Shown piece after piece: positions 2 through 64,000 of a DNA stretch of 64,000 bases; the first letter of the stretch is position 1, and each line of letters opens with the position of its first letter. The notes beneath the pieces were generated by a model that saw nothing but the letters and a program-made list of their open reading frames with translations, had not been told where the DNA came from and did no database searches. Origin of the DNA: Histomonas meleagridis (taxonomy: Eukaryota > Parabasalia > Tritrichomonadida > Dientamoebidae). The stretch covers positions 2,604,001-2,668,000 of the forward strand of contig WSYJ01000060.1 in NCBI GenBank assembly GCA_020186115.1. The letters are read 5' to 3'. The position numbers were made by a program, and so were the translations under genes.

Positions 2-1112
2 TCAATTCATAAAGAAAAAGAACCCTTAGTTAAAGCGATAAAATGGAGTAATTATGAATTTCTGGAATTTTTAAAAGAAGAAGAAGATAATTTGAATTTG
101 GGTGTATTTCCAAGTTATTGTAAACTTTCGATAGAAATGGGCAATTTATATCTTTTGAAATACTTCTTAGAAATAATACCAATACCTGATGATATCTTAT
201 TATGGTCTGCAATATCATGGAATGCTGAAATTATAAAGCTATTTATTGATAAAAAAGCTTTTAATATTAATGAAACTGATATTAATTTTTTTTGATTTTA
301 TGTTTGATATAAATATTTCATAATGTTTACTTAAATTTTAAATGAATCCTTTATTAATTGCTTGCAAACATGGAAATTCAGATGTAGTTAAAATAATACT
401 TGAAAACAAAAGAACTAATATAAAAGTTAAAAATATTTTTTGACTTTATTTTGGGTTCATTTAAAATATTTTATGGAATTTTTTAATAGTATTTGAGAAT
501 GCTCTTACATTTGCAATTAAAAGTGGAAGTTTTGAAACAGTAAAATATCTTTTGGATCATGGAGGATTCGATCTTAATATCATTAATGTTTAATTTTTAT
601 ATTTAAAGTTTGTTTAAATAATTTAAAATTTCATGATAATAATTGGAATTTATTTTAAATATTTATGACACCACTAATTGAAGCATCTGATAAAGGTTAT
701 GATAAAATAGTTAAATTACTTTTAGAACAAAAAGGAATTAATATTAATGCTAAAGATTTCTGTTTGTTTCTTTTAATATATATTAAAAAGTTTTTCTATT
801 TATAAATAACATTTAAAAATTATTAAAATTATTTGAAACAGCTCTTTTTAAAGCATCTACAAAAGGTTATGTAGAAATAGTGGAATTATTACTTAAGCAA
901 GAAGGAATTGATATTAACGCTAAAAATATTGATTCGTTTTGTTTTGGGTTTCATTCTGGTATTTGTAATTTCAATATAATATTTGGAATTTACTTTAATT
1001 TTTTAAAACAGCACTTGACATGGCTACTAAGCATGGATATAATAATATTGCAAATATATTAAAAAGAAAAGCAGTTGAAAATAAATCTGTGAATAATTCT
1101 CAAATACAATAA
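2..1112 (+). CDS. DUF3447/ankyrin repeat protein, 3' part of a multi-cassette gene (5' end outside window)
   Basis: The gene enters from the left edge in an open frame (2-280) that matches the end of the long N-terminal exon of the family; it reads ...NINETD at its end. Five ankyrin cassettes follow: 345-434, 498-587, 668-757, 838-927 and a terminal one from 1008. The first four are exactly 90 nt (30 codons from the T-A-L position to the N-A-K-D/N position). The terminal cassette runs into a basic/polar tail (KRKAVENKSVNNSQIQ) and a TAA at 1110-1112. Spacers are 64, 63, 80, 80 and 80 nt, contain stops and change frame, so the protein can only be made if they are removed. Ankyrin repeats are protein-binding scaffolds; partner unknown. 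Exact splice points cannot be fixed from sequence. Confidence 0.75.
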
Positions 1113-16807: not shown

Positions 16808-19349
16808 TTATTTTGAGTATATAAGGATATATTTATTTTCTTTTTGTTCAAGAAGTAATTTACCAATTTCTGTGTGGCCTTTTGCAAATGCACATGTTGT
16901 TGCTGTTCTAAACAATTTAAATAATTTCCAAATATTATTTTGAAATATCAAATTATTAAAATAAATACAAAATATAACATATAAATATCTTCCGTATTAA
17001 TATCGATTCCTTTTTGCTGAAGAAGTAATCTGACTATTTCTGTATGACCATTATAAGATGAAAACATAAGTGCTGTCCAAAATATTATAAATAATTTCCA
17101 AATATTATTTTGAAATATCAAATTATTAAAATAAACATCAAATAAAACAAATAAATATTTTTAGCATTAATATCAATTCCTTCTTGTTCAAGAAGTAATT
17201 TAACTATTTCTGTATGACCATTATAAGATGAAAACATAAGTGCTGTTATAAATAATTTAAATAATTTCCAAGTATTATTTTGAAATATCAAATTATTAAA
17301 ATAAATTCTAAATAAAACAAATAAATATTTTTAGCATTAATATCAATTCCTTCTTGTTCAAGAAGTAATTTAACTATTTCTGTATGACCATTTTTAGATG
17401 CAAATATAAGTGCTGTTATAAATAATTTAAATAATTTCCAAATATTATTTTGAAATCCCAAATTATTAAAATAAATATGAAATAAAACAAATAAATATCT
17501 TTAGCATTAATATCAATTCCTTCTTGTTCAAGAAGTAATTTAACTATTTCTGTATGACCATTAAAAGATGCCCATATAAGCGCTGTTTTAAATATTTAAA
17601 ATAATTTCCAAATATTATTTTGAAATCCCAAATTATTAAAATAAATATGAAATAAAACAAATAAATATCTTTAGCATTAATATCAATTCCTTTTTGTTCA
17701 AGAAGTAATTTAACTATTTCTGTATGACTATTTTCAGATGCTAACATAAGTGCTGTTTCAAATAATTTAAATAATTTCCAAATATTATTTTGAAATATCA
17801 AATTATTAAGATAAACATCAAATAAAACAAATAAATATTTTTAGCATTAATATCAATTCCTTTTTGTTCAAGAAGTAATTTAACTATTTCATTTCGAATA
17901 TACAAAATTGCCCATAGAAGTGGTGCCCAAAATAATTTAAATAATTTCCAAATATTATTTTGAATTTTCAAAATATTAAAATAAATTATAAATAAAACAA
18001 ATAAATATCTTTAGCATTAATATCAATTCCTTCTTGTTCAAGAAGTAATTTAACTATTTCTGTATGACCATTTTCAGCTGCACAAATTAATGCCGTTTTA
18101 AATATTCTAAATAATTTCCAAATAATATTTTGAAACATAAAATTATTAAAATAAATTTTAAATAAAACAAATAAATATCTTTTGCATTAATATCAATTCT
18201 ATCTTTTTTTAAAATATATTTCACAAGTTCAAAATTTCCTGATGCTGATGAAAAAACCAAAATATCCTTTGGAATTTCATTTTCTCTAAGAAAATGTTTT
18301 ATAAGGAATATATTTCCAACTCTTGCTAATTCATTAATAATATCATTATTAATTTTCATTCCTCCCTTGAGTAAAATCAAAAATATATCCAAATTATCAC
18401 ATAAAACACATTTCTTTCCTAATTCTTCTAAATTGTTGATATCTTCAATTTTATTATCATAAAGATATTTAAAGATATCATTTCGATGAAACTTAATTGC
18501 TGTTTTATATGCACCTTCAAATGATGAATGATTTTGTTCACATAAATGAATAATTTCTTCATTTCCACCTGCAACTGCATATTTACCTGTGTTTTCTACA
18601 TTTGCTCCATTCACAAATAAATATTTAAAACATTTTACTGATCCAAAAAATGCTGCATAATCAATTAATGTAACATTTTCTTGATTTATAAATGAACATC
18701 TTTCATAAAGTGATGGTTCAACAAACTGATTAAAATCAAATTTTGTTTGTGATGATATTTCTTGAAGTTTTTCGATTTCATCATTTCGAATTATTTTCGC
18801 AATTTCATTTGGATTGACTCCTTCTTCAATTAGTTGCTTATGGAGTTCCCATCCATTCTTTGAAAGTTCTTCATAATTTTCGAAAAAATAATTAAACTGT
18901 TTGTCATCATCTTGGTTATATATCGAATTGTTTAAATAATTCTTTTCATCGTAATGTGCAAAATAAGGAGTTAATGAAACGAAAAATTTTGGTTTAGAAA
19001 ATTCATTCTTAAGAATTTCATTAATGAGATATTCACTATCGCCTGTAGTCTTGTTGACAAGAAAATGCATTAAAACATCAAATATTTTTTTATGCTTGTT
19101 TTCATTATTTAACATTTTTTCAAGTTTATTAAGAAAATCGAATATTATATTAGAATTAACTATTTGTGCTACAAATGATGAATATGTTATATGACTTATA
19201 ACCAAATTAAAAGAATATGAATAATTATCATCAAATATATCAAATATTGTTTGTACTGATTGAGAAATATTTCCTTCGTTTAAGTCGTAAATAGTTCTAT
19301 TGATTAATTGATAGGTTTCCCACGAATTCTTCTTTTTTTGTTTTTTCAT
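16808..19349 (-). CDS. DUF3447/ankyrin protein, long exon plus eight one-repeat cassettes
   Basis: Long N-terminal exon 19349-18177 (about 391 aa) starts at ATG 19349 (MKKQKKKNSWE). It holds a helical N-terminus, the NEIAKIIRNDEIEKLQEISSQ linker, and the DUF3447 core (IDYAAFFGSVKCFKYLF, YAVAGGNEEIIHLCEQNHSSF, YKTAIKFHRNDIFKYL). It ends in a first ankyrin repeat finishing DRIDINAKD. Cassettes then follow at 18096-18007, 17926-17837, 17756-17667, 17586-17497, 17416-17327, 17246-17157, 17076-16987 and terminal 16906-16808 (stop TAA). All internal cassettes are exactly 90 nt, separated by exactly 80-nt spacers. Reading straight into the first spacer gives a stop at 18087 after a hydrophobic tail (IYLFYLKFILIILCFKILFG). 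Cytosolic scaffold role inferred. Confidence 0.75.
16830..18176 (-). repeat. Eight-unit tandem array with exact 170-bp period (90 coding + 80 spacer)
   Basis: The marker TGTATGACCA (and its variants) recurs at 16871, 17041, 17211, 17381, 17551, 17721, 17891 and 18061, always 170 bp apart; the homologous point in the long exon is at 18231, again 170. Units 17041-17831 are close to identical in both coding part and spacer, suggesting recent unit duplication. Older, diverged units keep the same length. Confidence 0.9.
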
Positions 19350-29389: not shown

Positions 29390-30290
29390 TTTAATGTAAA
29401 ACAAATAAATATTTTGAGCATTAATATCAATTCATTCTTGTTCAAGAAGTAATTTAACTAATTCTATGTGACCATTTAAAGATGCTAAAATAAGTAAATT
29501 TTGAAATAATAATTTTGATTGATCTTGACGTAATATGTAATATTTCGAGAAGTAATCGATGAAATATAATTGCTGTTCTATATGCATCTTCAATTGATGA
29601 ATGATTTTGTTCACATAAATGAATAATTTCTTCATATGCACCTGTAACTGTATATTTACCTGTATTATTTATATTAGCATTATTCATAAATAAATATTTA
29701 TAACATTCAATAGAAGAAAAAAATGCTGCACAAACAATTAATGTAACATTTTATTGATTTATAAATAAACACTTTTCGTAAAGTGATGGGTCATTTTGAT
29801 GGTGATTAAAATCAAATATTGTTTGTGATGATATTTTTTCTAATTTTCCAATTTCCTCATTTTAAATTATTTTTGCATTTTTATTCGGAACAACGCATTC
29901 TTTGACATATTTCTTATGAAGTTCCCGATCATTTCTTTAAAGATCTGAACAAATTTCATGAAAATATTTATAAGAGTTACGATATTTGAATATTTATATA
30001 TATTGATTTATTTGGAAAACGATGTACTAAATAAAAGGTATCTTCGTCTTCAACTGATTTTGCTTAAATTTATTCATTTTGATCAAGTTTTCAAGAATAA
30101 AATATGATTTTTGTGTGTCTAAACTAGAAAGAAAAAAATCGGTAAATCTTTTAAATATCCTTCATTTGTGAAACAATCTATGAACATATTAAAGGACCAT
30201 AATCCAAAAAAAACAAGAATTTTTCATATGACATTTGATGGTGATTAATCATCGCTTACACAAAAAGTTTATCAACAAAAACTTCATGAA
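29390..30290 (-). pseudogene. Decayed DUF3447/ankyrin gene
   Basis: Minus-strand homology to the long N-terminal exon of the intact ankyrin genes (YTVTGAYEEIIHLCEQNHSS, NNANINNTGKY, and further upstream the linker before it), interrupted by in-frame stops and frameshifts near 29520, 29760, 29870 and 29940. One ankyrin cassette (LASLNGHIELVKLLLEQE) is left at about 29425-29490, joined to the core by a deletion. No continuous product possible. Confidence 0.75.
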
Positions 30291-30791
30291 TTTTGGTTCC
30301 TGTACAAAAACAAGAGATTAGAATATTAGTTATAATATTTATGATAAAACTCAAATATATTTTTCTTTTTCAAAATATTAATCATTATAATTCGATATTT
30401 GAAAAGATCCCCGCCATTTCCCTGTTCAATTATCGATGAATTTCTGTGTTTGAATCGTTCATTGAATGCCGATATTGTAACGGTAACGATGAATTCTGGT
30501 GTGATTCATCAGGCCCAACTTTGAACAGTTTTATATTAACACTCCCAAATAACATCTAAAAAATTTTAATAGCTGAAGTGTAAGATACGAAACCCACATT
30601 CATTAATTGAAAATTATAAGCACATACATCAATATGATGATTCACAGAATTCCTAAACCATGAGGATGATTTGAATACTTTTCTTTTTTTTGTTTTGTAT
30701 CGGCTATTTAAAATTTGAAAATTTCGCATTCAAAAAACCTCACTTTTTTGCACCAAAACCTATTTGATTCGAAACTTGGTAGGACAAAAGA
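30291..30791. other. intergenic
   Basis: About 500 bp before an intact ankyrin gene; somewhat less AT-rich around 30410-30530. No ORF or RNA gene recognised. Confidence 0.45.
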
Positions 30792-33700
30792 ATGAAAAAA
30801 TTGGATGAAGCAAAGGAAACTAATTTTATTCAATATCTACGGATCATACAAAACAATGTATTAAAGGTGAATGAAAAAAATATTTCTGAATCAGTTGAAT
30901 TGATAAATAAATTAATTGATTCTAATTATTCATATTCTTCCATGATAGTTATAAGTCGATTAATATATTCATATTTTATGTCACATAAAAGCTTTAAAGT
31001 ATATTTACAATTTCTTAAAATATTTTCTACTAAATATTCAGACACAATAATTGATACTTTTACACAATTACTTATACATTTAAATTCACAAGAAACAAAT
31101 TACCTTTTAGAAAAGTTAATTGAAGAAAACTTAATAAATGCTAAAATTGTAAGCAACATGAAATCATTATATTTTATTCATTATAAAACGAATGAAGAAA
31201 TTAATGCATTAAAAGATTTAACAAGTGATAATCCGTTTCATAAAAAATTTTTTGAACATATTGAAGAACTTAGGAAGGATGATTGGAAGCTCCACAAGCA
31301 ATTCATTCGAGAAGGAACTAATCCTTCTAATATTGTTACAATAATTCGAAATGATGAAATAGAAAAACTTCAAGAAATTTCAACAGAACCAAAATTCGAT
31401 TTTAAACAAATTATAGAGCCATCTTTATATGAAAGATATTCATTCATTAATAAAGAAAATGTTTCACTTGTTGATTATGCTGCATTCTTTGGATCAATTA
31501 AATGTTTCAAATTCTTAGTGTTAAATAATGTTGACATAAAAAACACTGGGATATATGCTGTTGCAGGTGGAAATCTTGAAATTGTTTATATTTGTGAGCA
31601 AAATCACTCAAACTTCGAAGGATCAATCGAAATAGCAATAGAATATCATAGGAATGAAATTTTTCAATATTTTTTTGATAATGAAAACATTAAAGAAGAA
31701 GATTTGACTGAATTAGCTAAAAAATGTATTATATATAACAATTATGAAATTTTGTCTTTTTTGACAGAAAAGAAATTAAATTTTAAAGAATTGATAATAG
31801 AATCAGTCGAAAGTGGAAATATATTTCTATTTAAACATTTTTCAAATGGAAATGAAATACCAAAAGAGGCTTTAATGTCAGCAGCTCGATCAGGAAACAA
31901 AGAAATTGTTAAACTACTTCTTGATAAAGGAAAATTTGATGTAAATATAAAATATGTTTCATTGTATTTAGTAAAAAATATTTTAATAATTTGGAGTTTT
32001 AAAATATGTAATAAAATTTATTTTGATAATTTTATACACCATTAATTGTTGCATGTAGTGAAGGTTATTTTGATGTAGTTAAATTTCTTCTTGAACAAAG
32101 AAGTATTAAAATAAATGAAAAAAACATAAATCGTTTTTATCATTTGGAATTTCAATAACATTTTTGGAATTCATTTGATAGATTTTATACTGCATTTTTT
32201 ATGGCAGTTCATAATAATAACATTGAAATTGTTAAATTACTTCTTGAGCAGAAAAGAATTAATGTTAATGCAGTAAATTTTTCTTTCTTTATTTTAATTT
32301 TAGATTTTAATTATTTGGAGTTTCTTTTTAATATTTAGAATATTTACATATTATTTTGGACAGCACTTATTGATGCAGCACAAAATGGATACATTGAAAT
32401 CGTTAAATTGCTTGTTAATTATAAAAGGATTAATGTGAATGCAGCAAATTTTTATTTGTTAGTTTTAATTTTTCTTTAAATCAAATAAAATTTCATTATA
32501 ATAACTGGTAATTAATTAAACTATTTTACACAGCACTAATGTTTGCTATTAAAAATAACTATATCGGAATTGTTAAATTACTTCTTAATCATAAAAAGAT
32601 TGATGTCAATTTACATGATTTTATTTTATTTTAATTAAAATTTATCTTATTAATTTCGAATTTAAAATATAATTTTGGTGTTAACTAAAAATATTTAATA
32701 CAGCTCTTATTTTAGCATCTATCAATGGTTATTGTGAAATAGTTAAATTACTTCTTGAACGTAAAGAAATTGACATTAATTTTAAATCAATTAACTTATT
32801 TTATATAATTTTTATATTAATAATTTGAAATATGAAATTAATTTTTGGTAATTATACAAATTATTTAAAACATCAATTATGTATGCATATGAAAATAATC
32901 ATCAAGAAACAATTAAATTACTTCTTGATTATAAAAGAAATCATCCCAATATTAAAAATATTTATTTGTTTGTTATAAATATTTCATAAATATTTTTGGA
33001 TTTAATGAAAATATTTGAAAATCATTCGAAATATTTTTAATAGAATTTATTTTTGGATATGAAAATGGCCACGCTGAACTTGTCAAAACAATTCTTGATC
33101 AAAGTACTGACATAAGTTTTGAAGGAATTAATTTCATTTATTCGATATATCCTTAATTTCTTTGATATTTTAACATCATATTTGGTAAATATTCAAATGT
33201 TTTAATCAAGCACTTCTTTATTCATCTAAAAAAGGAAATATAGAAATGGTTAAACTACTTCTTAAACAAAAAGAAATTGATGTTAATTTTGAAAATTTTT
33301 ATTTTTCTTTATTCATTTTTATTTTATATATTTTATATTTCAAAGTAATGTTTAAGACAGCACTTCTAATTGCATCTAAAAAAGGATATACAAAAATAGT
33401 TAAGTTACTTCTTGAACAAGAAGGAATTGATATAAATGCAAGTGATATATAATTAATTTATTTAGAAATTATTTTATTAATTTTGGATTTCAAAATAATA
33501 TTTGGAAATTATTTATATTGTTTTATACAGCATTTATGTTAGCATCTAAAAATGGTCATAGCGAAATAATTGATTTATTTCTTAAACATCAAGGAATATA
33601 TGATGATAGAGATGTTTCATTCTTTTAATGGAAATTTTTTCCAATAATTTAGGGTTTCATAATAATATTTGGAAATTATTGGATATATTTAAAGTATCAA

Positions 33701-35693
33701 TATGCGGTGTATATAAAAATGGATATATAGATACTCTCAAATTTCTTATTGAGAATGGATATGCTAATATAAATAGTAGGGATATTTATTTATTATGTTT
33801 GAGGTATGTAATAATAATTCCGATTTTTAACGTAAAATTTGGTGTTTGTTTATATCAATTAACTCAACATTAATGCTCGCATTAAAAAAAGGTGATATTG
33901 AAATGGCAAATTTTCTTCTTGAACAAGAAGAAATTGATGTTAATTTTGAAAATTTTTGTTTTTCTTAATTAATATTTATTTTATATATTTTGGATTTCAA
34001 AATAATATTTGGAAATTATTTAAATTATTTGAAACAGCACTTATTATAGCTTTAAAACAAAATGAACACGAAATAGTTAAATTACTTCTTGAAAAAAAAG
34101 GAATTGATATTAATGCTAAAAATATACATTTATTATGCATCAAATTCGTTTAAATAATTTCATGTACTAAAACTATATTTGGAAATTATTCAAAAAATTT
34201 AATACAGCATTTAACTTTGTAGGATTTAGAATTCCAATACTCAAATTATTTCTTAAACATAACAAATTTGATATTAATAAAATATCTTTATTTTATTTGA
34301 TAGTAGGCTATTTGAATGTGCTTCTTTAAATGGTAGAACGGATATTGTTAAATTAATTCTTAAATATAAAGGAAATGTTATCGACATTAATCTTGTTAAT
34401 TGATTTTATTTTGTATTTTAAAACAATATTTGGATATGAACTTATTACTGCAGCTAGTCACAATTTTACCGAAATATTTAATTTACTTATTGCACAAAAA
34501 GGAATTGATGTCAATAAGAAACAATTTATTTATTTGTTTTATTTTGGATTTATTTTAATAGTTTTATGTTACTAAACAATATTTGAAAATTATTTAAATA
34601 ATTTAAAACAGCACTTATGTATGCATCTCAAAATGGTAATATAGAAATGGTTAAATTACTTCTTGAGCATGAAGAAATTCATGTTAATGCAAAAGATATT
34701 TGTATGTTTTACATAGATTTTATTTTAATATTTCAATGATCTCTAATAACAAATGGAGTTTATTTCTATAACTTAATACAGCTTTTCTTCATGCTATATC
34801 AAGCTTTCAAAATGAAACATCAAAATTACTTCTTAAGTATAAAGGGATTGATGTTAATTTGCAGAATGTATTTTTATTTTATTTATGGTTTTCTCAAATA
34901 ATTTTTTCTTTCAAATCAAAATTTGGAATTTTTGTGAATTATTTGAAACACCACTTATTTTGGCATCTGAAAATGGTAATATAGAAATTGTTAAAATACT
35001 TCTTGAGCAAAAAGGAATTAACATTAATGCAAAAAATATTATTTCGTTTTTTTCATTGCTGAATTAAAAATTTTAGTGCTTTAAAATAATATTTGAAAAA
35101 TATATCAATAATTTAATACATCACTTATTTATGCATCTAAAAATGGTCACACAGAAATAGTTAAAATGCTTCTTGAGCAAAAAGGAATTGACATCAATGC
35201 TAAAAATATTTATTAGATTTATGTAACGTTTAAACAAGTATTTTAGTGCTTTAAAATAACATTTGGAAAATATATCAATAATTTAATACAGCACTTATTT
35301 GTGCATCCACAAAAGGTCGTGTTGAAATAGTTAAATTGCTTATTAAACAAGAAGGAATTGACATAAATGCTATAGATATTTATTAGATTTATTCATTGTT
35401 TAAATAATTACCTTAGCATTTTAAAATAATATTTGGGAAATATTTCAATATTTTAGCACAGCACTTAAATATGCATATAGGAAAGGTCATACTGAAATAG
35501 TTAAAATGCTTCTTGAGAAAGAAGGAATTGATATCAATGCTATAGATATTTATTTGCTTTGCAAACAGGTCATTACAATAATTCTTCGTTTTAAAACAAT
35601 ATTTAGCATTTACACAAATAATTTGATCCAGCACATAAAATAGGATTAGACATCAAAAACTCTGATGAAGAAGATCTTCTTGAAAAACACTGA
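30792..35693 (+). CDS. DUF3447/ankyrin protein with about 22 one-repeat cassettes
   Basis: Long exon 30792-31955 (ATG 30792, MKKLDEAKETNF) encodes the helical N-terminus, the IVTIIRNDEIEKLQEIS linker, the DUF3447 core (VDYAAFFGSIKCFKFLV, YAVAGGNLEIVYICEQNH) and a first ankyrin repeat. Cassettes begin at 32036, 32189, 32360, 32530, 32700, 32870, 33039, 33207, 33357, 33527, 33694, 33864, 34034, 34204, about 34314, 34438, 34608, 34778, 34948, 35118, 35288 and 35458. The terminal exon 35628-35693 codes an acidic tail (DIKNSDEEDLLEKH) and TGA. From 34438 to 35628 eight steps are close to or exactly 170 bp. Spacers are mostly 80 nt. The cassette near 34314 lacks its TALI start. If spliced, the protein would be about 1100 aa; unspliced it stops at 32045 after a hydrophobic tail. 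Later units are more diverged than those of the 17-kb gene. Confidence 0.75.
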
Positions 35694-40079: not shown

Positions 40080-40640
40080 AAATTTTAGTAGGTTTGTACA
40101 TTAACATCGATTCCTTTTCGTTCAAGAAGTAATTTTACTACTTCTATGTACCATTTTCAGATGTATACATAAGTAATGTTTTAAATAATTTAAATAAAGT
40201 TCAAATATTTTTAAAAATTTTGAAATACTCAAAACAAATATTAAGCAAAATACATAAAAATCTTTATTAATATTAACATCTTTTTGTTTTAGCAAGTATT
40301 TAACAATTTGCAAATGATTATTTTTTGCTGCCTAAATAATTGTTAGTGTAAAAAATTTAAATTTTAAACATACAATCATGAAATTTAACATTTGCATTAG
40401 TAATATTAACATATTTTTGTTGTTCTTTAAAGAACCGTTTCACAACTATAGTGTTACCATTTTCAATACTTCAAAAAAAGTTTCACTTGAAATTTTTTTC
40501 CTTTAAAAATCATATGTATAAATGAAAGATTATTGTAAGTTAATGAAACTTTTGTTTTTGATAATCCTTCTCTTTGTAAATAGGTTAAAATCTCATAATT
40601 AAAGTATCTCAAAAATAAAAATCCGAAAACTTTTATATTT
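40080..40640 (-). pseudogene. Decayed ankyrin cassettes
   Basis: At 40095-40180 a cassette (LLMYTSENGT... VKLLLERKGIDVN) carries a one-base frameshift. At 40256-40330 a second (IVKYLLKQKDVNIN) is truncated. 40380-40640 holds weaker matches to the end of the N-terminal exon (EILTYLQREGLSKTKVS). Stops and frame changes throughout. Confidence 0.6.
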
Positions 40641-41199: not shown

Positions 41200-41860
41200 A
41201 AAAAACAATGTTGTTTATGAATAATGTAGAATATTATGATTTCTTGTTGAAATTTATTGACTTTATCATTTGTGATTATGTTGCTGGGAATTGGGGATGT
41301 ATGTACAGGTTATGTGAGACACCAAAGATACCATTGCTGATTAATATTGATTGAAACGGTAAGGTTTTTATGTTGATTGTTGTGAATGTGACTCGTACAT
41401 GTTAGGAACACTAAAGAAAAGTTATCTTATTAATATTGATTAAATAAGCAATTAGTTGTGGATACTTTTATATTTTAAAGTCACGCAAAAACAGACGATC
41501 CGAAACATCCCAAACAAGTACAGTCTTCAAAATATTATATGAAGTCGGTGCACTGTCTTCGACTTTTTTGATTGGATACTCTTTTTTGCAAAAATATAAA
41601 AGATTTTTGTAAACACTCAGTAATTTGGGTGTATACTTCTAAAAGGTGCTTTCAAAAAAAATATATATATATTTAAAAAATATAGACGAATGATTTACTT
41701 CTTGAATTGATTCCTCAATTAATTTTACAATTGCATAATTGCACCTTTGCCTTGCTATTTGAAGTGTATTTAAATATTTATATATATAAAATAAATCAAC
41801 AAACATTAGAAAAAGAAATCAACAAACATTGATAAAAACATAAAAATATTCATAAGATTA
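41200..41860. other. intergenic accessory DNA
   Basis: No gene recognised. Contains a short AT microsatellite near 41668 and a direct repeat of ATCAACAAACATT (41798 and 41819). Confidence 0.4.
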
Positions 41861-41869
41861 ACATTGATA

Positions 41870-42492
41870 CCTTTTATTTCCAAAAGAGTTTTAGCAATTT
41901 CGACTCTATTTTCAGAAGCTGCATACATAAGTGCTGTACAAAACAATTAAATCATATTCGGGGGATATAAATCAAACATTAAATTATTGAAATTAATTCT
42001 AATTTGCTGAAATGAATATTTTGAAGATTAGGATTCACTGTGGGAACTTTGTAAAGTATTTGTGCAATTCTGATGTTTCCATTCTTGCAGGCGATAATGT
42101 GCGTTTTAGAATTAAAATATACATTATCAGCAGTGTTAAAAAAGCAAAATGAACAGTTTGAATGTTGTAATTAAGGTCTCCATGATCAGCAAGTAATTGA
42201 TCAATTTCATCCCATCCTGAATCTAGAGCAAAAATAAGTGCTTTTTCACGAAATGGAATTAAACACCAAATAAGATAGACAAAACCAAAGTGTTAAGAAT
42301 ACACATTTTCATTTTTGAAATAAAATCCTTTTTCAATTAGCATTCTCAGCAATTTCATCTTATAATATTTTCATAATAGTTTTGATATTTTTGCTGTTCT
42401 ATAAGCAAACCTATCTTACTTTGAAGGTATGATTTTTTTTTTTTTTCATTTAATTCTTCAATTGCGATCTTGAGTTGTTCAATTTCAGACAT
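41870..42492 (-). pseudogene. Small ankyrin-type gene with a different N-terminus, probably decayed
   Basis: A possible start at 42492 (MSEIEQLKIAIEELNEKKKK, then SYLQSKIGLLIEQQ) runs about 47 codons to a stop. Downstream are separated ankyrin-like pieces: KLLRMLIEKGFYFKNEN (about 42310-42370), KALIFALDSGWDEIDQLL (about 42175-42250), and TALMYAASENRVEIAKTLLEIKGINVN (about 41865-41945). The pieces lie in different frames with AT-rich spacers, so it might be a genuine cassette gene. However, several pieces are imperfect, so decay is more likely. Confidence 0.45.
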
Positions 42493-56973: not shown

Positions 56974-59321
56974 TTATATATTATAAGTCTGCATATAGCA
57001 TTGAATTAGTTTAACTATTTCTGTATGACCATTTCTAGATGCATATATAAGTGCTGTTCGAAATAATCTAAATAATTTTTAATTATTATTTTGGGATTTT
57101 AAATTATTAATATAAATATTAAATAAAGCAAATAAATGTCTTGAATATTAACATCAATACATTCTTTTTCAAGAAGTAATTTAACTATTTCTGTATGACC
57201 ATAATAAGATGCCCACATAAGTGCTGTTCGAAATAATCTAAATAATTTTTAATTATTATTTTGGGATTTTAAATTATTAATATAAATATTAAATAAAGCA
57301 AATAAATGTCTTGAATATTAACATCAATGCATTCTTTTTCAAGAAGTAATTTAACAGTTTCTGTATGACCATAATCAGATGCTAAAATAAATGCTGTTCG
57401 AAATAATTTGAATAATTTCCAAATATTATATTAAAACAAAATGTTAAGGAATTAAACAACAAATTAATGATGTTAACATCTTTAGAATTTATATCAATTA
57501 TTTCGTGTTTCAGTAATAATTTAACAATTTTTGTATACCCTTTTATACATGCCCACATAAGTGCCGTATAAAATAATTTGAAAAATTTTCAAATATTATT
57601 TTGCAATAATAAATTATCATAAAAAATTTCCAATATATATTAAAAATATTATCCTTAGTATTAATATCAATTCCTTTTTGCTCAAGAAGTAATTTAACAA
57701 TTTCTTTATGGTTTTTTGCAGTTGCAAATATAAGTGCAGTATAAAACGTTTAAAATTATTTCCAAATATTCTTTATCAATAAATTATTAAAAGAAAACTT
57801 ATATAAGATAAGTAAATGTCTATATCTTTTATATCATCTGAACTTTTGTGAATAAGAAATGAATATAATTTTCTGTTATCGAATTCATAAGCATCTGTAA
57901 GTGCTAGATGTAATATTTTATTTAAATTCCATTTAATCTTTAGAAAAATTAAAACAAAACATGAGATTTGAAATAAAAGAATGAAATATTTTTCGCATTA
58001 ATATCAATTCCTTTTTGTTCAAGAAGTAATTTAACTATATCTGTGTAACCAAAATTAGATGCTATCATAAGAGCTGTATCAAATATTTTCAATAATTTTT
58101 AAATATTATTTTGATATATCAAATTATTAAAATAAATATCAAATAAAACAAATAAATGTTTCTAGCATTAATATCAATTCCTTTTTGTTCTATAATATAT
58201 TTAACAAGCTCCAAATTTCCTGATTGTGATGAATAATTTAATATATTTTTTGTAATTTGATTATTTTTTAGGAGATATTTGATAAAAAATATATTTCCAA
58301 TTTTTGCAGCTTCATTCATTATATCATCAGTAATCTTCATTCCTTCTTTTTCAAGAAATGAAAAAATTTCATAATTATGATATGAAACACATATAATACC
58401 TAACTTTTCTATATTAATAATTTTTCCAATTTTATTTTCATAAAGATATTTAAAGATATCATTTCTATGAAACATAATTGCTGTTTTATATGAGTCTTCA
58501 AATGATGAATTATTTTGTTCACATAAATGAATGATTTCAAGATTTCCACTTGCAATTGCATATTTACCTGTGTTATTAACATTTACATTATTCATTAGTA
58601 AAAATTTAAAACATTTAATTGATCCAAAAAATGCTGCATAGTCAATTAATGAAACATTTTCCTTATTTACGAATGAACATTTTTCATAAGGTGATTTTGG
58701 AATTTTTTGATTAAAATTAAAATTGTCTTGAGATGATATTTCTTGGAGTTTTTCGATTTCATCATTTCGAATTATTTTCGCTATTTCATTCGGGTTAACT
58801 CCTTCTTTAATATACTTCTTATGAAGCTCAAAATTATTTTTTGAAAGTTCTTCATAATGATCAACAAAAATACTATCTTCATTGCTATAAAAACTTGACG
58901 AAAATTTATTAAATTCATGAGGTGTCATATAATGCAAGAAATATATTTTATCGGTATTACACACAACTTTTGGTTCAATTATGTTGTTTTCGAGTAATTT
59001 TTCAAGAAGATAATTTGAAGTTGAACAATTTTTAAATAAAAGAAATTTGGTGAATACATCATATATTTCAGAATTGATTTTATTTGTTTCTTCAAATTGT
59101 TCAATTTCCTTTATAAAGTTTAAATATAAATCAAAATCATTTTTTATCTTAAATGCTATATATAGCATTTGACAAATAATTAAATTAGAAGAATGAGGAA
59201 AATTATAATCAAATATTTCAATCATTTTTAACAAAGATTTAGAAGTGTTTTCTTTGCTTAAACCAAAAATGATTTTCTCTGTTAAATATGTTGATATTTC
59301 CTGAATATTATTCTCAGACAT
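56974..59321 (-). CDS. DUF3447/ankyrin protein, long exon plus seven one-repeat cassettes
   Basis: Long exon 59321-58158 starts at ATG 59321 (MSENNIQEISTYLTEK), with an initiator-like TCATTG 9 nt ahead. It encodes the helical N-terminus, IAKIIRNDEIEKLQEISSQ, the DUF3447 core (IDYAAFFGSIKCFKFLL, YAIASGNLEIIHLCEQNNSS) and one ankyrin repeat ending GIDINARN. After an 80-nt spacer come cassettes near 58077-57988, 57912-57820, 57742-57655, 57568-57485, 57399-57310, 57229-57140 and terminal about 57059-56974. The terminal cassette is TALIYASRNGHTEIVKL followed by IQCYMQTYNI and TAA at 56974-56976. Three successive steps are exactly 170 bp (57022, 57192, 57362, 57532). The cassette near 57860 is unusual (LALTDAYEFDNRKLYSFLIH). 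Reading into the first spacer gives a hydrophobic end (IYLFYLIFILII) at 58119. Confidence 0.75.
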
Positions 59322-62709: not shown

Positions 62710-64000
62710 TTAGTTATTGATTAATTTAACAATATCATTGTGCCCTTTACTAAGAGCAATGTTGAGTGCTGTTTCAAAAAAATTGAAGATATTCCAAAAA
62801 TTTTTATGAAATTTTAAATGAGTTAAATAATCTTTATACTAAAAGAATATAAATTTTTCTCATATTTATTAGCACCTTTATCAAGAAGCATCTGAACGAT
62901 GTCTATATTGTCAGTGTAAGCAGCTATCATAAGAGGTGTGTTTTATTTTATAATAAAATTCCAAATATCATTTTGAAACTTCAAATTATTGAATCAAATA
63001 TCATAAAAAATAAATCGTTATTTTTTACATTTATTTCAATATTATTTTGTTGAAGAAGTAAGTTAGCAATCTTTACTTCATTTAAACGAATTGCTTTGAA
63101 TAGAGCAGTCTCAAAAAAATTGATTAAATTCCAATTATTTCTATGAAACAAGATATAATTTTTATTAATTTCAAATAAAATTTATAAACATCTTTCGCAT
63201 TAATATTAATTCCTCTTTGAAGAAATAGATTAACCATATCGTAATTATGTACTGTAATTGCTTTATGAAGTGCTGTTTCAAATAATAAAAATAAATTTTA
63301 TACATTATTTTGAAATATGAAATTATTATAAGAAATTTCAAATAAAGAACTAAAATTCCTTTGTCATTAATATCTACATTACTATTTTCTAAGAATATTT
63401 TGACTGTTACCAACCAATTATGAGCAACTGCTTCCATAAATGCTGTGTTAAATGATTAAAATAAACACCAAATATTGTTATGAAATGTAAAATTATCAAT
63501 AGTAACGGTATTTTTAATTTTGGTATTAATTCCTTTTTGTTCAAGAAGTAATTTAACTAATTCAAAATAACCTTTTTTAGCTGCTATAATTAGTGCTGTT
63601 GAATTATTTAATTTAAAAAAACAAGTTATAACATATTTAAACATCATAATTCCCAAAAAAATATCATATTAAATAAACAAATTTTTGCATTTAGATTAAT
63701 ACCTTTATGTTGAAGAAGTATTGTTGTAGTTTTTAATAAACCATTATAAGCTGCAGTCATTAATGCTGTTTCAAATATTTTTATTTAACATTTTATAATT
63801 CATTTTAACTATAAGGTTTTGTAAAAAACATCATATAAATTTAAATAAATATCTTTAGCATTAACATCAATTCCTTTTTGTTCAAGAAGTAATTGAATTA
63901 TTTCATAATAACCATGTGTAGCTGCAGCTATAAGTGGTGTAATAAATATCATAAACAATTTCCTAAAAATATCAAATAAATACCTTATTTTTTGATAATA
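62710..64000 (-). CDS. Ankyrin cassette gene, 3' part (5' end beyond right edge)
   Basis: Eight ankyrin cassettes read on the minus strand from the right edge: 63940-63851 (TPLIAAATHGYYEIIQLLLEQ...NAKD, exactly 90 nt), 63769-63682 (TALMTAAYNG), 63602-63513 (TALIIAAKKGYFELVKLLLEQ), 63450-63360 (TAFMEAVAHNWLVTVKIFLE), 63280-63190 (TALHKAITVHNYDMVNLF), 63112-63020 (TALFKAIRLNEVKIANLLLQQ), 62944-62860 (TPLMIAAYTDNIDIVQMLLDKGAN) and terminal 62778-62710 (TALNIALSKGHNDIVKLINN then TAA at 62710-62712). Spacers are near 80 nt. Repeats here are more varied than in the 17-kb array, which makes conservation of the open cassettes more telling. The N-terminal DUF3447 exon, if present, lies outside the window. 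Confidence 0.7.

Follow-up and report, generated by a model that had tools for sequence, protein, structure and literature searches.

The 64,000 nucleotides (nt) analyzed here, referred to as the window, come from the Histomonas meleagridis genome (43,276,120 bases, 121 contigs), where they occupy positions 2604001-2668000 of contig C40. At positions 30792-35693 the window contains a gene in which single ankyrin repeats, each encoded by a separate cassette, alternate with AT-rich spacers. Analysis of this gene and of related loci suggests that it belongs to a very large DUF3447-ankyrin family in which each repeated unit of DNA combines an ankyrin repeat with an intron and the spacers are removed from RNA; the probability of this reading is estimated at about 0.7. 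The cassettes would then be joined into a single ankyrin solenoid. An earlier note on this DNA had described the same architecture and proposed that the spacers are introns; as a whole, its observation is confirmed and its interpretation is partly supported.

The main gene opens with an ATG at 30792 inside an open frame that extends from 30783 to 32045, and its exon 1 matches DUF3447 (34.2 bits) together with Ank families in Pfam (Table 1). The 23 cassettes and the short terminal exon leave up to 23 gaps, and every internal exon window is open. One of these gaps, the 101 nt from 34204 to 34305, is too small for a spacer of the usual size; the earlier estimate was up to 22 introns in one gene.

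The generality of this organization was assessed in a sample of 262,018 bases, comprising the window and the surroundings of the 20 best DUF3447 hits (20 loci, about 10 kb each), in which the open frames were searched with a hidden Markov model (HMM) of the cassette; at least three cassettes scoring at least 12 bits each were counted as an array. In this 262-kb sample, 28 arrays of single ankyrin cassettes alternating with AT-rich spacers were identified. Among intervals of less than 260 nt between neighboring cassettes, 180 of 243 measure exactly 170 nt, 26 measure 150, 153 or 156 nt, and the rest are scattered. The pattern of 90-nt cassettes and spacers reported earlier is real, but the unit is better described as a near-fixed period of 170 nt. 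Since 170 equals 2 modulo 3, the reading frame rotates with every repeat, and exon windows (positions -6 to 93) are open in 262 of 273 cases in their own frame, compared with 20 of 273 in the +1 frame and 1 of 273 in the +2 frame; 19 of the 27 arrays with at least four cassettes are open in all internal windows. Spacers with a length divisible by three number 44 of 265, and only 9 can be read through, so that read-through is impossible in 256 of 265, in agreement with the previous claim that spacers carry stops or shift the frame. These data support the conclusion that the cassettes, unlike the spacers, behave like exons that code in a rotating frame. Removal of the spacers restores a single frame, as is generally required of spliceosomal introns, with the same 262 of 273 exon windows open.

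The borders of the coding segment were located by counting in-frame stops in 142 units that are non-redundant at 75%. Read from the 5′ side, codons 70 to 88 contain none, and their frequency is 1.4% at 91 and then 7.0% at 94; counted back from the following cassette, it is 0.7% at codons -3 and -6 and 7% at -9. Coding constraint thus ends near unit position 93 and sets in again up to 6 nt upstream of the following Thr codon. From position 94 on, the 5′ frame accumulates stops at 1-11% per codon, with 33% at position 127. For most spacers these stops refute translation of the spacer by programmed frameshifting, an explanation that we find scarcely credible and that draws on some spacers in which both frames are partly open; furthermore, the 153-nt class needs no shift, yet 9 of the 14 spacers of this class that are shown carry stops. 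Removal models were also compared on a set of 165 units: with 93, 96 or 99 nt retained, there are positions at which only 1-3 units bear a stop. A retained length of 102 nt (34 residues, the pattern of locus L051, described below) leaves at least 15 of 165 units with a stop, and 93-99 nt is accordingly preferred. Removal of approximately 71-77 nt, or about 20 nt less for short-class spacers, is favored by these counts and would restore a continuous frame at any spacer length, with a border that is not fixed to the base.

Selection on the cassettes was evaluated in 40 unit comparisons, drawn from 20 independent pairs of two-unit blocks; the substitution rates and spectrum of the spacers supplied the neutral expectation. 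Only 341 amino-acid differences were observed versus 604 expected, and seven positions, Thr1, Leu3, Ala6, Leu18, Leu19, Asp25 and Asn27, change at 4-30% of the neutral expectation. Codons with synonymous change only are in excess (107 versus 73 expected), and synonymous change among codons with an unchanged residue (0.125 observed, 0.122 expected) indicates that the spacer baseline matches synonymous change. In three-unit blocks at most 25% apart (8 block pairs), the synonymous rate (dS) is 0.21, the spacer rate 0.19 and the nonsynonymous rate (dN) 0.18. Spacers thus take up substitutions neutrally, close to the synonymous rate. The neutral expectation is surpassed at codon 5 (1.89-fold, p 1.5e-4) and codon 8 (1.50-fold, p 0.004), the p values being uncorrected for the 30 codons tested. 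Faster-than-neutral change at ankyrin positions suggests that the proteins bind variable partners. Of the earlier proposal of purifying selection limited to the cassettes, the strong constraint on some codons stands, but codons 5 and 8 change more than the spacer rates predict. The codon that precedes the Thr of each repeat (unit positions 168-170) has substitution rates of 0.28-0.48 and is among the most variable near the border, as expected for a position on the binding surface.

Additional evidence comes from loci and proteins in which a spacer is missing or translated. In L051 and L053, junctions that lack the spacer stay in frame, at 34 and 35 residues, respectively, and L052 retains a short in-frame remnant of the spacer at 37 residues (all counted by hand). 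These three loci, a non-random sample chosen for a stop-free run-on of the alignment to the protein P0004, demonstrate that the reading frame can survive spacer loss; four others (L054-L057) keep a spacer-sized in-frame stretch at the first junction. Exon 1 is matched at 34-52% identity by P0001-P0016, which are encoded on short contigs from other sources; among the matches listed, P0001 is at most 55% identical to any locus of the H. meleagridis genome, and neither P0001 nor P0004 finds a genome locus above 60%. P0001 continues in the frame of exon 1 across a spacer whose length fits the 170-nt register, with Phe-Gly at the place of the TTTGG motif (counted by hand), so that the spacer and its length seem to be older than the present members of the family. 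The family probably originated when a single repeat, already equipped with its spacer, was amplified in tandem. Canonical ankyrin loops carry Gly, which makes it attractive to regard TTTGG as a micro-exon encoding Phe-Gly between two introns, but the spacer-less junctions of L051, L052 and L053 have no Gly there.

The conserved spots of the spacers are a T-rich start, TTTGG located 22-26 nt upstream of the cassette, and TTT immediately before coding resumes. Spacers fall into two length classes, 71 nt and 51-57 nt, the latter appearing by eye to have arisen in the clearest cases by a 20-nt loss and codon insertions. Equal length was found in 64 of 71 spacer pairs, with an indel/substitution ratio of 0.006-0.016 in pairs selected by a gap-penalized score that favors few indels; an alternative count with loose gaps was over-gapped (655 events versus 712 substitutions) and was replaced. 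A 17-nt quantum of length (170, 153, 136) was also considered and dropped, given this origin of the short class and because none of the length differences listed for broken copies of exon 1 equals 17, most being single-base shifts.

Several lines of evidence weigh against the view of the spacers as introns, beginning with their ends. GT does not exceed 24% at any 5′ position, and GT..AG ends are found in at most 3 of 165 units in any model; AG near the 3′ border reaches 65%, solely inside the coding Thr-Ala codons (ACA-GCA). A 3′ motif of the Trichomonas vaginalis type, ACTAACACACAG, has 3 matches in the 43-Mb genome versus 2 for the control, that is, background. Likewise, the spacers do not fit the U12 class: among the top termini listed for any model, AT-AC ends account for no more than 29 of 165 units. 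Pairing between the spacer ends is lower than in shuffled sequences in the 170-nt class (0.113 versus 0.147, p 0.004, 60 units); in the short class the increase over shuffles lacks significance (0.209 versus 0.168, p 0.20, 21 units), and neither consensus pairing nor folding energy of the spacers goes beyond shuffles. The near-invariant length is itself unusual among introns, and U1 small nuclear RNA (snRNA) was searched for in the genome and not found. In addition, no spliced homologue stood out among the best 120 of 6,817 matches, of which the sequences of P0001, P0004, P0006, P0010 and P0011 were inspected. The case for removal is drawn entirely from DNA, and since the cassette HMM was restricted to open frames, the absence of stops in cassettes is partly by construction, although 5 undetected units (in gaps above 230 nt) and the 11 of 273 exon windows that contain a stop provide a counterweight.

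The remaining objections concern the integrity and the evolution of the copies. Exon 1 is clearly intact in only 12 of the 28 arrays; several of the others contain single-base shifts, and some have an unusual first cassette or are truncated by the end of the sampled sequence, so that some copies are pseudogenes or contain assembly errors. Pairwise dN/dS is 0.67-0.98 across bins, only mildly below 1, when pairs are chosen by spacer similarity, a choice that biases the ratio; in the multi-unit blocks used instead it is 0.67-0.94, with 1.83 in the smallest bin (2 block pairs). The comparison of paralogues that had been suggested as a check therefore yields a mixture of constrained and fast-changing codons and not simply purifying selection. 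Together with the overall dN/dS and the small number of intact first exons, the mosaic structure of the units, in which cassette distance correlates with that of the following spacer at 0.27 for the 5′ half and 0.50 for the 3′ half, would be compatible with satellite-like DNA or pseudogene tails, in which only exon 1 and the first cassette are translated and the cassettes are kept alike by recent amplification and gene conversion. We consider this unlikely, given that the codon-specific constraint, with seven residues at 4-30% of neutral, matches ankyrin structure, that the terminal exons with their stops sit in register, and that the frame is kept after spacer loss, albeit in loci chosen for stop-free run-on. 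In our judgement, the gene family is functional, with the cassettes as its exons, and what is translated must lack the spacers. In 8 of the 12 intact genes, an initiator-like TCAYTW, the sequence of the trichomonad initiator, is located in the 80 nt before the ATG, compared with a frequency of 0.195 in shuffles. Compared with intact paralogues, exon 1 of L031, L032, L034, L039, L045 and L049 has frame shifts, in most cases by a single base, which may mark pseudogenes or be residual Nanopore errors. In L034, the last cassette (2886) is followed by a spacer-like tandem repeat of about 20 nt that covers approximately 250 bases to the end of the sequence shown for this locus.

If the spacers are absent from the product, RNA-level removal is the most likely route, and the host possesses a spliceosome: the genome encodes the PROCN domain of Prp8 above its cut-off (E 5.5e-206), U2 snRNA is matched at 80.5 bits, above the cut-off, and U6 at 43.7 bits, just 0.3 under the cut-off of 44. 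The host is an intron-poor parabasalid, in line with the earlier remark that trichomonads have very few introns. The spliceosome may remove the spacers by means of weak or unusual sites (the T-rich start, TTTGG and TTT) combined with the near-fixed length; alternatively, the agent may be something other than the spliceosome. Each specific intron type tested fails in a defining feature. Translational bypassing, in which the spacers stay in the messenger RNA and the ribosome hops over them, would make splice sites unnecessary and could exploit the near-fixed length, with TTTGG and the T-rich borders as signals. Known bypassing uses matched take-off and landing codons, and none were found here (identity in 9 codon pairs is within the shuffled range); spacer folding is not beyond shuffles, and a single protein would demand as many as about 30 hops, all of which renders this explanation very improbable. 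Still more doubtful is excision from an expressed copy of the genome, comparable to the internal eliminated sequences of ciliates: the length classes of 71 and 51-57 nt and the very few indels recall length-constrained excision, but an invariant border repeat was not found, a second version of the genome was neither seen nor searched for, and to our knowledge DNA excision of the ciliate type is not known from parabasalids.

On the genome scale, the cassette motif has 1,908 + 1,718 = 3,626 matches, compared with none for the reversed pattern. The motif is carried by 60 of the 291 sample cassettes scoring at least 20 bits, and naive extrapolation gives about 17,600 cassettes; as the sample is biased to strong DUF3447 loci, the estimate is kept to the order of ten thousand, which is also the number of spacers that these data suggest. 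On contig C1, with 87 listed exact matches, 27 of the 37 intervals of at most 212 nt are exactly 170 nt and none fall at 99-105 nt, the spacing of spacer-less ankyrin repeats. The scale accordingly exceeds that of the intron population proposed earlier, thousands of spacers and not about fifty, but the spacers fit no specific intron type tested.

Although the protein P0001 matches 97 genome loci at E <1e-115, the name of H. meleagridis is borne by no more than 2 (P0017 and P0018) of the 69 homologues found for the window protein; in the protein collection searched, most of the DUF3447-ankyrin family thus seems to be absent from the annotation. Gene predictors of the AUGUSTUS type trained on transcripts presume GT-AG introns. 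The published genes of H. meleagridis were predicted by transcript-trained AUGUSTUS in a Nanopore assembly polished with Illumina reads, 573 introns with at most one per gene were reported, and the word ankyrin is absent from the main text of the genome paper (PMC8529796). In a further study, the available text describes quantification of a 'KN motif and ankyrin repeat domain-containing protein 1' and not the array architecture (PMC10063853). No prior description of ankyrin genes with one spacer per repeat was found in listings of the non-subscription literature on Histomonas and parabasalid introns, noncanonical splice sites, ankyrins and the Histomonas transcriptome.

Within the window, all five genes previously described as sharing one plan were recovered by the cassette HMM. 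The three whose exon 1 lies wholly inside the window encode DUF3447 above the Pfam curated cut-off (PF11929, with Ank), and all five end in in-frame stops, as had been stated (Table 1). The window contains 51 cassettes scoring at least 20 bits, 47 within the five arrays and 4 alone, the earlier count being about fifty stop-free cassettes. In each of arrays 1 and 5, however, one exon window is interrupted by a stop, located at its outermost codon (-6). A 337-nt gap in array 4 hides one undetected unit. The four lone cassettes, all on the minus strand, are located at 41845-41937 (46 bits), 40254-40346 (32 bits), 40088-40180 (38 bits) and 29408-29500 (36 bits) and are probably remnants of further arrays. 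Elsewhere in the genome, Rps24 has six near full-length matches of near-equal score (on contigs C84, C33, C118, C8, C40 and C44 of G000) and one fragment, the domain lacking an internal intron in these matches.

Table 1. Positions of the main gene and of the other ankyrin arrays in the window
Feature	Positions	Strand	Details
Main gene, exon 1	30792-31958	+	DUF3447 domain and first ankyrin cassette (31866-31958); ATG, open frame, Pfam, cassette HMM
Main gene, 22 further cassettes	31959-35627	+	AT-rich spacer after nearly each; cassette HMM; starts 32036, 32189, 32360, 32530, 32700, 32870, 33040, 33207, 33357, 33527, 33694, 33864, 34034, 34204, 34305, 34435, 34608, 34778, 34948, 35118, 35288, 35458
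Main gene, typical 71-nt spacer	35211-35281	+	Between cassettes 35118 and 35288; TTTGG at 35262-35266
Main gene, short terminal exon	35628-35693	+	170 nt past last cassette; TGA at 35691-35693
Array 1 (5′ end beyond window)	2-1112	+	Cassettes 191, 345, 498, 668, 838; terminal ankyrin exon 1008-1112; TAA at 1110-1112
Array 2	16808-19349	-	DUF3447 exon, then cassettes at strict 170-nt register; TAA at 16808-16810
Array 4	56974-59321	-	DUF3447 exon, then cassettes; last cassette closes with stop at 56974-56976
Array 5 (5′ end beyond window)	62710-64000	-	8 cassettes; last closes with stop at 62710-62712

If the spacers are removed, the true number of introns would be at least an order of magnitude above 573 and concentrated in one gene family, the picture of uniformly intron-poor parabasalids would be overturned, and a natural system for splicing without terminal consensus would become available, along with a large diversifying repertoire of binding proteins in a parasite of the poultry gut. 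A more far-reaching proposal, which we hold to be possible but not probable, is that on the order of ten thousand intervening sequences of near-fixed length (about 71 or 51-57 nt), one for each ankyrin repeat and without splice-site consensus, are removed by recognition of their length and a weak internal motif instead of terminal dinucleotides, and that the arrays constitute a modular, recombining and diversifying binding repertoire.

The architecture resembles several known systems in part. In vertebrate ankyrin genes, introns are positioned at repeat boundaries and exons are amplified in tandem with their introns, so that the arrangement of one exon per repeat is shared, whereas the vertebrate introns are long, variable and canonical. 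The proteins P0035, P0037 and P0044 of Tritrichomonas foetus likewise contain DUF3447, with ankyrin repeats in P0035 and P0037, but in P0037, known from its protein record alone, the repeats are contiguous, unlike those of the H. meleagridis arrays. Noncanonical introns of euglenids and diplonemids are similar in that their ends are not GT-AG and the host has a spliceosome, but extensive pairing joins their ends, whereas the 170-class spacers pair less than shuffles (PMC12621601). Trichomonas vaginalis has 63 active introns with an extended 5′ motif and a fused 3′ motif of 12 nt, and no transcript with several introns is reported for it or for T. stableri (PMC12316389). The introns of these two species are short, occur in a parabasalid host and in some cases reside in ankyrin genes, in all of which they resemble the H. 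meleagridis spacers, while the latter differ in being counted in thousands, with up to about 30 per gene, in lacking such motifs and in their near-fixed length (PMC12316389).

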